Below, piece by piece: positions 2,788-6,547 of a stretch of 6,556 nucleotides of DNA (position 1 is the stretch's first letter; every line of letters starts with the position of its first letter). Made by a program: the position numbers and the translations under genes. Under the pieces are notes generated by a model. The model did no database searches and was not told the DNA's origin. It worked only from the letters and a program-made list of their open reading frames with translations. Source of the DNA: Nitrososphaerota archaeon (lineage in GTDB: Archaea > Thermoproteota > Nitrososphaeria > Nitrososphaerales > Nitrosopumilaceae); assembly GCA_030624325.1 (NCBI GenBank), contig JAUXKJ010000023.1, forward strand, positions 1 to 6,556, given 5' to 3'.

Positions 2788-3453
2788 TTAGATCCGAATG
2801 TTTGGATCTTCTGTCTTGAGTTTTTCCCAGTCTGCTAGAAAATTCTTTAGGCCTTTATCTGTTAGTGGATGTTTTAACATTTTTCCCAAAACTGCTGGGG
2901 GCAACGTTACAACATCTGCTCCAATTTTTGCTGCATCAACAACGTGTATTGGATGTCTTATACTTGCAACTAGAATCTGAGTTTCAAATTCATAATTTTC
3001 AAAGATTTCTTGTATCTCTTCAATCAACTGCATGCCATCTTTTCCAACATCATCTAGCCTCCCAATAAATGGACTCACATATTTTGCACCAGCCTTTGCA
3101 GCAAGAATCGCCTGATTTGGAGAAAAGACTAATGTTACATTTACTGGAATTCCTTCTGCAGATAGTGCTTTACAAGCCTTTAGTCCATCAGCAGTCATTG
3201 GACATTTAACAACAACATTGTCACCGTATTTTCTCAAGCGATGTGCATCATCAATCATTCCAGCATATTCTGTACTAATTACTTCAAGACTGACGTCTCC
3301 TTTGATAATTCTACAAATTTCTTCCATTGTTTTTTGAGGATCTCCACCTTCTTTTGACAATAGGCTGGGATTGGTTGTTATTCCGTCAAGCAACCCCATA
3401 TCATTATACATCTTAATGGATTCTAGATTTGCTGTATCTAGGAATATTTTCAT
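2788..3453 (-). CDS. tal: Transaldolase (small FSA/TalC-type)
   Basis: Transfers a dihydroxyacetone unit between fructose-6-P and erythrose-4-P in the non-oxidative pentose phosphate pathway. At 221 aa it belongs to the small transaldolase/fructose-6-P aldolase group. The TIM-barrel landmarks are visible: FLDTAN (4-9) with Asp6, GITTNPSLL (24-32), the Schiff-base Lys83 in VVKCPMT, the SPFIGRLDD region (127-135) and VASIRHP (162-168) with phosphate-binding Ser164/Arg166. Glu57 (SLEVIS) and Phe129 stand where the E. coli aldolase FsaA has Gln59 and Tyr131. That pattern marks true transaldolases, so aldolase-only activity is less likely. The ATG overlaps the transketolase stop in ATGA, with AGGAG 9 nt upstream inside the preceding gene, indicating translational coupling. 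It is the last gene of the operon and ends against a convergent gene. Family assignment is very secure; the reaction choice is good but inferred from residues. Confidence 0.94.
2790..2825. terminator. Stem-loop between convergent genes, possible bidirectional terminator
   Basis: AGATCC (2790-2795) and GGATCT (2804-2809) form a perfect 6-bp stem with an 8-nt loop. On the plus strand T5 follows at 2821-2825. On the minus strand the stem meets the transaldolase stop codon and is followed by a T-rich tract (complement of 2770-2780). Both convergent transcripts could end here, although the stem lies within the last transaldolase codons. Confidence 0.4.
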
Positions 3454-4421
3454 GATTTTTTACTCCTGATTTCTTTTACTGCATTTGCTATATTAATAGA
3501 TGTTATTCCGTGTTTTTCAAGCAAGAGTGGAATTTCGTTATCTCTTGCAGATTCACCAAACATATCTTTAACACCTATTCGTTTGATAGGTACAGGATAC
3601 CTTTCAGAAACTACTTCAGATACAGCTGAACCAAATCCTCCCATGATGTTGTGTTCTTCACAGGTAACAATTCCACCTGTTTCTCTTGCAGATTTTTCTA
3701 AAAGAGCTACATCGATTGGTTTTACTGAAAACATATCAATTACTTTACAAGAAATTCCTTCTTGTTTGAGTTTGTCAGCTGCATCTAAAGCCATCTTTAC
3801 AGTAATTCCGCATGCAACAATTGTACAATCATTACCATCTCTTAATGTAATTCCCTTACCAATTTCAAATTCTTGTGACTCTGAATGTACTACTGGTGTT
3901 TTAGAACGAGTCATTCGCATGTAAAATGGACCATATTTTTGTGACATTATCCAAGTTAATTTTAAAACAGTGTTGCCATCAGCTGGAATTAAAACTTTCA
4001 TGTTGGGTATTGTTCGCATTATTGCAATGTCTTCTATTTGTTGATGAGAACCTCCGTCGGCACCAACTGATAATCCACCATGTGAAGTTACCAACTTTAC
4101 ATTAAGTCCCTTATTTTCACCACGACTTGGATATGCAATTGCGTTCCGTATTTGATCTACACAGCGGCCTGGAAGAAATATTGCATAGGTACTTGCAAAA
4201 GCAACTTTTCCAGCATATGCAAGGCCAGCTGCTATTGAAACAAGATTTGCTTCTGCAATTCCAACATTAAAAAACCGTTCTGGGAAATTTTTTCCAAAGC
4301 CTGCTGTCTTTAATGAATCAGTAGTATCTGCTCCTAAAACAACAACATTAGGATTTTCTTTTCCTATTTCGATCAAAGTCTTGCCATATTCTGTGCGCAT
4401 GTCAGTTAGTTGTTCAGTCAT
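3450..4421 (-). CDS. tktB: Transketolase, C-terminal half (pyrimidine-binding and C-terminal domains)
   Basis: Pairs with the N-terminal half encoded just upstream to form an active transketolase, moving two-carbon ketol units between sugar phosphates with thiamine diphosphate (TPP). It holds the pyrimidine-binding domain (about residues 5-175 of the 325-aa form), including GADTTDS, the FNVGIAEAN motif with the Glu that activates the TPP aminopyrimidine (E59 of the longer form, E57 from the ATG), and [19 protein letters not shown], equivalent to the family's DG-THQP(I/V)E region. The C-terminal transketolase domain (about 190-310) follows. Two starts are possible: TTG at 4427, whose TTGA overlaps the upstream stop with AGGAG 11 nt before it, or ATG at 4421, 2 nt after that stop. 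I chose ATG, but the Shine-Dalgarno spacing leaves TTG open. Translation is probably coupled to both neighbours. Split transketolases are usual in archaea. Confidence 0.94.
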
Positions 4422-4423
4422 TG

Positions 4424-6091
4424 TCAATTGAACCCTAGCTCCTGAGAAATTTGGATAAGTTGATTCTTTTTTTTACCCACAACATGCAAGTCAATCCATT
4501 GTTTAACAAGTTCAGTTCCCCCAAACTCATGTGCTTTTTGAATTAACAATTTTCTCCTAGAACGTAATATGGTATTTCTAAATTCCCTAATGATACCTCT
4601 TACATCTTTTTGTCCGATTATTGCACTTCCTCCAACAAAGGCTCTAGCACCATCCAAAAAACATTGGCCTACATTATCAAGACCAACACCACCGTCAGCC
4701 TCAATATATCCTCCAAAATTATTTTCGTGAAGAATTTTTACAAGATTTTGAGTTTTTTCATGTGTTGTTTCGATAAATTTTTGTCCAGATTTACCAGGTA
4801 CAACTGACATTACAATTAGTTGATCTAAATCGGAGACGAATTTGTTTGACCATTGAGGTAATTCTGTGTCAGGATTAATTGCAAGGCCAACACCAACTTG
4901 GTTCTGTTTTAAGATGTCATGAATTTCTCCAAAACTAGATTCATCACAAACTTCAGCATGAACAGTAATTATGTCACAGCCTGCATCAACATAATCCCGT
5001 ACATGTTTTACTGGTTCGTTTATCATCAAATGTGCATCAAATGGAATTGCTGTGATTGGTCTGAGATCTCTAATTTTATTATGATCAAAAGTTCTGTTGG
5101 GAACAAAATTTCCATCCATTACATCAAGATGAATGTAGTCAGCTCTTCCTTCTACACATTTTTTCACTTCGTTTTCTAAATTGGACATATCACCTGCGAT
5201 TATTGAAGGAGCAATCATAAATTGGGAATCAAGTTCTACATCAATTATTGGTGCAATCTCTGGTTTTGGTGCTTTGCCATGCCATTGTGGATTGTCTTCC
5301 ATATGTTCGACACTTTTACCTTTTATTGTTCGAGCAATTATTATAGAAGGCACGCCCTTTGCTTGAGACGCTTTTGTTAATGCATCATCAATCTGTTCAA
5401 TTCTATGTCCATCAATTTCTAAAACATTCCAGCCAAATGCTCTCCATTTATCGCCAATTTTCCATCTACTAGCATCTTTCCACATCTCAGAAAGATCATC
5501 TCCAACAAGTTCTTCATCTAAAGGCATAACTTTTTCCGTGTACGAGTCTTGTTGTATAAAATTTCTATCCATTATAACTGTCATGTTATCAACTTTGTAT
5601 TTTGCAGCAGTCATTGCCGCTTCCCAAACTTGTCCTTCGTCTGACTCTCCATCACCGATAATTGTATAGATGTGATGATTCTTTCCATCAATTTTTGCTG
5701 CTAATGCATTACCTATAGAAAATGAAAGTCCAATTCCTAATGAACCACCACAAAATTCTACACCAGGGCATTTTAGATCAGGATGACCTTGTAATCTACT
5801 TCCAAACTTTCTTAGAGTTTCAATTTCTGATGGTTCAAAATATCCAGCCACTGCAAGATTTGAAAACAATCCTGGAGAAGCATGACCCTTTGATAAAACC
5901 AATCTATCTCTGTCTTCCCAGAGAGGATTTTTTGGATCATATCGCATGAATTTGAATAGTATACATCCTAAAATTTCAGCCATCGAAAAGCTTCCTCCTG
6001 GATGCCCTGAACCTGCTTTAGTTGTACCTTTAATGACTAACTTACGAGCCTTGAGAACGTTTTTTTTGATTTGATAGTAATTTAGTCCCAT
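4424..6091 (-). CDS. Fusion: transketolase N-terminal half + ribulose-phosphate 3-epimerase
   Basis: A 555-aa bifunctional protein. Residues 1-277 are the TPP diphosphate-binding half of transketolase: GSGHPGGSFS with His30, SKGH with His70, QGHP with His103, GDGESDEGQVWEA with the Mg/TPP Asp147, DRN with Asn177, and QWHGKAP with His271. All expected catalytic histidines are present. After a linker (278-291), residues 292-505 are a complete ribulose-5-P 3-epimerase: IAPS with Ser296, IHLDVMDGNFVPN with metal ligands His321 and Asp323, DAHLMI with His354, EADGGV with Asp466 and the phosphate loop VGGSAIIG (486-493). The usual PGFGGQ capping loop is PGKSGQ (432-437). A basic, helix-prone tail of about 50 aa (506-555) extends beyond known epimerases. 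The epimerase makes xylulose-5-P, a transketolase donor, so the fusion joins consecutive steps. It is first in the operon. Residue 292 is an ATG codon (5218-5216), the likely ancestral epimerase start. Domain calls are very secure. Confidence 0.95.
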   Translation of the reverse strand: MGLNYYQIKKNVLKARKLVIKGTTKAGSGHPGGSFSMAEILGCILFKFMRYDPKNPLWEDRDRLVLSKGHASPGLFSNLAVAGYFEPSEIETLRKFGSRLQGHPDLKCPGVEFCGGSLGIGLSFSIGNALAAKIDGKNHHIYTIIGDGESDEGQVWEAAMTAAKYKVDNMTVIMDRNFIQQDSYTEKVMPLDEELVGDDLSEMWKDASRWKIGDKWRAFGWNVLEIDGHRIEQIDDALTKASQAKGVPSIIIARTIKGKSVEHMEDNPQWHGKAPKPEIAPIIDVELDSQFMIAPSIIAGDMSNLENEVKKCVEGRADYIHLDVMDGNFVPNRTFDHNKIRDLRPITAIPFDAHLMINEPVKHVRDYVDAGCDIITVHAEVCDESSFGEIHDILKQNQVGVGLAINPDTELPQWSNKFVSDLDQLIVMSVVPGKSGQKFIETTHEKTQNLVKILHENNFGGYIEADGGVGLDNVGQCFLDGARAFVGGSAIIGQKDVRGIIREFRNTILRSRRKLLIQKAHEFGGTELVKQWIDLHVVGKKKNQLIQISQELGFN

Positions 6092-6169: not shown

Positions 6170-6547
6170 ATGGATTTGCAAAGTATGGTACCTCTAGTCA
6201 TATATGATGATCAGTGTTACCTTTGCGTTAAATTTGCCAAAGTAGTTAATTTTTTGGCAAGAGGTAGATTGCGTCTAGTAGGTCATTATACTGAATTAGG
6301 TAAGAAATTAAGAGAAAGTATTCTAGATTCTAGTGCGCTTGAAATGTTTTGGTTTGTTGATCATAAGATGGCATATGGGGGAAGATCTGCATTAATACCA
6401 TTAATGAAAGGAATTCTTAGTGCAAATAATAAAACTGATAGCATTAGCGTCCAAGAATCATGTGATATCGGTTGCAAAAATCCTAAAGCTGTGTTTATTC
6501 GATCTTTTAGCTTAATCACTAATAGCAAAAAAATTAAGCTCACATAG
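6170..6547 (+). CDS. DCC-family (DUF393) thiol-disulfide oxidoreductase-like protein
   Basis: A 125-aa protein with the thioredoxin-like DCC/DUF393 pattern. A beta strand and the CxxC motif lie at the N terminus (VIYDDQCYLCVKF, Cys16 and Cys19), standing for the family's FDGxCxxC. YGGRSALIPLMKGI (69-82) follows, the family's G-x-x-A helix. The length is typical. Members are presumed to shuttle electrons between thiols, but physiological substrates are largely unknown. A second pair, Cys98-x3-Cys102 (SCDIGCK), near the end is not part of the core motif and might be a second redox or metal site. No signal peptide or membrane segment is present, so it should be cytosolic. It is divergent from the pentose phosphate operon across 78 bp with separate promoters. 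The start at 6170 is supported by the TATA spacing. Family assignment is good; role unknown. Confidence 0.8.
   Translation: MDLQSMVPLVIYDDQCYLCVKFAKVVNFLARGRLRLVGHYTELGKKLRESILDSSALEMFWFVDHKMAYGGRSALIPLMKGILSANNKTDSISVQESCDIGCKNPKAVFIRSFSLITNSKKIKLT
6509..6540. repeat. Inverted repeat at the 3' end of the DCC-family gene
   Basis: AGCTTAAT (6509-6516) and ATTAAGCT (6533-6540) are perfect 8-bp arms around a 16-nt A-rich loop inside the last codons. No T-run follows on the plus strand within the window, so a terminator role is uncertain. Confidence 0.35.

Follow-up and report, generated by a model that had tools for sequence, protein, structure and literature searches.

In 2024, Padalko, Nair and Sousa reported that 73 of 98 thaumarchaeal assemblies carry a fusion of the N-terminal half of transketolase (TktN) to ribulose-phosphate 3-epimerase (Rpe) (cluster 341.1; PMC11237513). 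Transketolases divided over two genes are also known: for the split enzyme of Carboxydothermus hydrogenoformans (6YAK/6YAJ), the consulted portion of the published account describes chains that are inactive alone and active as an alpha2beta2 assembly, without a PP-Pyr linker (PMC7661550). Here we analyze a stretch of 6,556 nucleotides from a Nitrososphaerota archaeon (contig JAUXKJ010000023.1; hereafter, the window), in which one gene of 555 codons, at 4424..6091 on the minus strand, encodes the transketolase N-terminal (PP) half, a linker, Rpe and a C-terminal tail. The initial annotation had left open whether such a fusion had been described. It has been: the passages of PMC11237513 on cluster 341.1 concern a fusion of these two parts in this lineage, with no tested difference from the window protein, and the fusion is real, conserved and already in print. 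As far as those passages show, what is new beside them is the unfused precursor with its adjacent genes, the test for a single clade, the constant length of the linker and the tail; precursor, tail and linker are not described there. Very likely, the gene encodes a conserved bifunctional enzyme of the non-oxidative pentose phosphate pathway in ammonia-oxidizing archaea, one that would have originated in a single fusion and would pair with the transketolase C-terminal half (TktC).

The gene starts with ATG and runs through its codons without interruption. Its product comprises a Transketolase_N domain at residues 12-274 (5270..6058, minus strand; Pfam PF00456, E 1.7e-44), a linker of 20 residues at 273-292 (5216..5275, minus strand) with a predicted short helix at 280-288, a Ribul_P_3_epim domain at 293-492 (4616..5215, minus strand; Pfam, E 5.8e-52) and a tail at 505-555 (4427..4579, minus strand). 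Both domains are complete and score well over the Pfam gathering cut-offs, which bears out the single uninterrupted frame with a transketolase half and a full epimerase that had been proposed from the letters; as in cluster 341.1, the two parts share one frame in a thaumarchaeon. The remainder of the transketolase comes from another gene, also as proposed: 3450..4421 on the minus strand encodes the Pyr and C domains (PF02779/PF02780), and its nearest solved chain is the C chain of 6yaj/6yak (E 7.1e-97). This is the layout of a split-type transketolase, with the thiamine pyrophosphate-binding GDG...N motif and the active-site histidines on the PP half and the Pyr and C domains on the partner chain. 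Indeed, the nearest solved relatives of both window halves are the chains of the Carboxydothermus split-gene enzyme, 6YAK. According to the same portion of that account, the Carboxydothermus N chain is the PP domain alone, with no epimerase and no tail, whereas the window protein has both. Solved ribulose-phosphate 3-epimerases (PDB 7sbj, 5umf, 1rpx, 3ovp) are stand-alone proteins, unlike the epimerase of the window, and those listed align to residues 509-516 at most, short of most of the tail.

We compared the window gene with the best 80 of 168 relatives at named loci, the closest being Nitrosopumilales/Thaumarchaeota records. Both domains lie in one stop-free frame at all 80 loci, and the stop codon or frameshift between residues 278 and 291 that the initial annotation had named as the sign of two genes occurs at none of them. 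A further close relative outside these 80, L143 (genome G397), 82-83% identical, has its halves in different frames and a stretch missing; either the copy is broken or the assembly is at fault. Catalytic conservation was followed in 79 aligned fused proteins, i.e., the window protein and 78 others that are 49-89% identical to it. The ten catalytic residues named beforehand are all found at their positions in the window protein, and nine of them (H30, H70, H103, D147, H271, S296, H321, D323 and H354) are invariant in 79 of 79, as is N177. The epimerase part is a TIM barrel with the Ser, His-x-Asp, His and Asp active-site residues of its family. We take the roles of these residues, and those of the GDG...N motif and histidines of the transketolase half, to be the usual ones of each enzyme. 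Against the NCBIfam models, the epimerase scores above the cut-off of NF004076 (191.3, cut-off 165) and below that of TIGR01163 rpe (183.4, cut-off 212.6).

Could the continuous frame be a sequencing or assembly error in the window, with two genes in reality? In distant relatives the two genes are indeed separate and adjacent, but the junction is unbroken and the linker identical in length across the 79 aligned proteins, and all 80 relative loci are fused. We give this explanation next to no credence and reject an assembly artefact, as independent assemblies of many relatives carry the fused frame. It is highly improbable that the thiamine enzyme is instead a 1-deoxy-D-xylulose 5-phosphate (DXP) synthase or a dehydrogenase E1 component. 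The TktC chain matches the DXP synthase model dxs too, at 192.8 bits; however, both chains score better against a transketolase model (284.8 and 305.2 bits), the N-terminal half reaches just 33.8 bits against dxs, and a transketolase is the nearest solved relative of both halves. These profile scores and solved relatives favor transketolase, and the other two identities were rejected. Finally, the epimerase domain might have lost catalysis and be kept as a structural or regulatory part, in keeping with a Glu in place of D466 in one relative (P0192). This too is very improbable, since S296, H321, D323 and H354 never vary, 78 of 79 rows retain D466, and the fused epimerase is the sole epimerase match in all four genomes searched.

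Several observations weigh against the view of a conserved bifunctional enzyme. Besides the substitution at D466, more than one epimerase-family match occurs in some genomes, and the window's own genome, which was not among the four searched, may hold a second epimerase. Both transketolase halves fall under the full-length NCBIfam cut-off, as expected of halves. The structure model of a Nitrososphaeraceae-type protein has a mean predicted local distance difference test (pLDDT) of 69.6, with low confidence over the transketolase half. In the literature searched, with subscription journals largely outside the search, we found no experimental study of any fused member; the fusion led there to PMC11237513 and to one review (PMC4470864).

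How widespread is the fusion? In a sample of 400 genomes of the class, 342 matched; by E-value and match count we class 254 of them as fused, 44 as split, 6 as in frame with a stop in between, 15 as cut or mixed and 23 as weak. Among the fused, 151 have E = 0, most of them listed as one open frame; of the other 103, an open frame was seen in 75, and 28 are assigned by E-value alone. We hand-picked 43 split or intermediate genomes and counted their layout by eye. The tktN and rpe genes are adjacent on one strand in 38 of them; rpe lies elsewhere in two (G166, G171), no rpe match was found in two (G164, G168), and G386 holds a fused gene cut over contigs. In the divergent genomes G012, G036 and G049, likewise picked by hand, rpe stands close by, but the gene order or the strand differs. 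Two transketolase fragments occur in G168, one of the fused type (82% identical) and one of the split type (51%), a combination suggestive of a mixed assembly. Outside the class sample, we considered the 32 genomes (counted by eye) of a 300-genome phylum sample whose epimerase match reaches E 1.1e-24. None of them holds a fused frame, their epimerases being stand-alone frames of 226-295 residues; the search for fused frames did not extend to bacteria or to other phyla of archaea. A viral origin was considered and rejected, as a phage collection gave 76 records, all below 60% identity. Five of these 76 are listed: in four, from Listeria, the match falls into two separate pieces, and in one it covers the transketolase half alone. 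The four, unannotated 'Listeria phage' records (OR848341, OR846917, OR846886, OR848325), may be pieces of bacterial chromosome with neighboring tkt and rpe genes.

Homologous tktN and rpe stand in the same order, followed by tktC, in the split-type genomes of the class, whose split loci fall within L137-L174; they differ from the window in that the two are separate frames. We chose 33 split loci with rpe no more than 600 bases from tktN, so that adjacency was selected, while the presence of tktC after rpe was not. In all 33 of these side-by-side loci, rpe lies between tktN and tktC. Outside the class sample, genomes G604 and G569 have tktC directly upstream of rpe, i.e., a different position in the cluster.

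In a tree of 62 rows and 467 aligned columns, a branch with support 100/100 sets the 29 fused rows apart from all others, and another (100/98.9) sets apart the fused rows together with six AmoA-positive split rows; a quick tree of 65 rows agrees on the fused clade. Archaeal AmoA was matched in 249 of the 400 genomes of the class sample. At all six adjacent split loci of AmoA genomes (G070, G080, G083, G100, G113, G138), a candidate rpe start overlaps the tktN stop by four bases, with later candidate starts also present at four of them. The split TktN ends 16-18 residues past its last His-Gly. Two more AmoA-positive genomes of the split kind, G164 and G361, are cut by contig ends and stand outside the trees. 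Some fused genomes have no AmoA match and some AmoA genomes no fusion match, which probably reflects incomplete assemblies. We infer that the AmoA-positive split group corresponds to Nitrosocaldaceae.

Because the fused genes form one clade beside AmoA genomes with separate adjacent genes, the comparison makes it most likely that the fusion arose once, by joining neighboring genes. If the root is placed among the AmoA-negative split rows, which is an assumption, one fusion took place within the ammonia oxidizers, after the AmoA-positive split lineage had branched. The adjacent tktN and rpe of a tktN-rpe-tktC cluster would then have been joined in the common ancestor of Nitrosopumilales and the Nitrososphaeraceae-type lineages.

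The linker and the tail set the fused proteins apart. From G272 to I293, the intervening stretch is exactly 20 residues in all 79 aligned proteins, and this despite a mean identity of 26% over residues 276-290 to 30 Nitrososphaeraceae-type rows; such a constraint suggests that linker length matters. Past the epimerase domain, 49-51 residues follow in the 80 relative loci and 39-52 in another 19 fused loci whose 3′ end is complete. The separate epimerases of the split loci, on the other hand, end 6-29 residues past the domain in 32 of 33, and the remaining one (L165) has an internal stop. Within the tail, R505, L516 and W532 are invariant in the 79 rows. The structure model of the window protein (pLDDT 87.4; predicted template modeling score 0.88) places helices at 497-534, continuing from the epimerase domain, and at 541-552. 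The Nitrososphaeraceae-type model, weak overall, has helices in its tail too, and a helical tail is all that it supports. The transketolase half of the window protein has a loop of some 20 residues (188-209; window 5465-5530) that many Nitrososphaeraceae-type and split proteins lack or have in a shorter form, and its model confidence is mostly very low (pLDDT below 50 at 192-209).

As judged by residues and domains, the fusion protein is probably bifunctional. Its N-terminal half would pair with the TktC chain of the next gene to give an alpha2beta2 transketolase as in 6YAK, and the precedent of Carboxydothermus, in the portion of PMC7661550 consulted, makes both this assembly and ketol transfer by fusion plus TktC plausible by analogy. 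The epimerase domain, on its 20-residue linker and with its helical tail, would interconvert xylulose-5-P and ribulose-5-P.

We infer assembly with TktC and a net flux towards ribose-5-P. The C-terminal domain of glucose-6-phosphate dehydrogenase (G6PD_C) was matched in none of the 24 chosen genomes and ribose-5-phosphate isomerase A (RpiA) in all 24. Among 14 control genomes, the same RpiA and G6PD_C searches gave matches in 8 and 9, respectively. Since the former is absent from these genomes' matches and the latter is always found, such autotrophs most likely use the non-oxidative pathway to make ribose-5-P from fructose-6-P and glyceraldehyde-3-P, with alternative glucose-6-phosphate dehydrogenases and Hps-Phi outside these searches. 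With flux in this direction, xylulose-5-P is the product of transketolase and the substrate of the epimerase. The initial annotation had the epimerase supplying xylulose-5-P to transketolase; that direction is probably the reverse of the real one.

What the fusion adds to two neighboring genes can be read in two ways. There is about an even chance that it merely fixes a 1:1 ratio and co-localizes the enzymes, with no substrate transfer, which would be a sub-case of the conserved bifunctional enzyme and does not compete with it. The genes were neighbors before the fusion, so that joining them gives equal amounts and alters little else, and sugar phosphates diffuse fast. On the other hand, a linker of constant length and a helical tail, as modeled, that is peculiar to the clade suggest a defined geometry. 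A bolder idea, which we regard as doubtful, is that the helical tail of about 50 residues, which comes with the fusion, and the fixed linker lock the epimerase onto the alpha2beta2 transketolase in a single geometry; fusion plus TktC would then form a pentose-making complex dedicated to that task in ammonia-oxidizing archaea, with xylulose-5-P handed over directly from transketolase to the epimerase.

The genes around the fusion are tightly packed. The tktC ATG at 4421 lies two bases past the TGA of the fusion, and an in-frame TTG at 4427 overlaps that stop. The next gene, 2788..3453 on the minus strand, overlaps the tktC stop by 4 bases and encodes a transaldolase/FSA-family enzyme (TIGR00875, 309 bits, cut-off 245.95; PF00923). 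The order fusion-tktC-tal is found in 74 of the 80 relatives; five others stop after tktC at a contig end and one stops at the fusion. The FSA/TalC-family protein has Glu and Phe at the positions compared with fructose-6-phosphate aldolases, which presumably have Gln and Tyr there, and may be a true transaldolase despite its NCBIfam name. Elsewhere in the window, 1416-1979 resembles a TATA-binding protein with two repeats, as judged by eye, 889-1341 encodes an ASCH-domain protein (Pfam), and 6170-6547 a protein with a sub-cutoff match to DCC1-like thiol oxidoreductases (Pfam).

The same protein is named "transketolase" or "ribulose-phosphate 3-epimerase" depending on the source, so one of its activities can be overlooked in pathway reconstructions. 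Among ammonia-oxidizing archaea, the fusion seems to mark a clade, and it supports a working non-oxidative pentose pathway in them. Together, the split-and-adjacent relatives and the fused genes offer a before/after pair for the effect of gene fusion on two consecutive enzymes.
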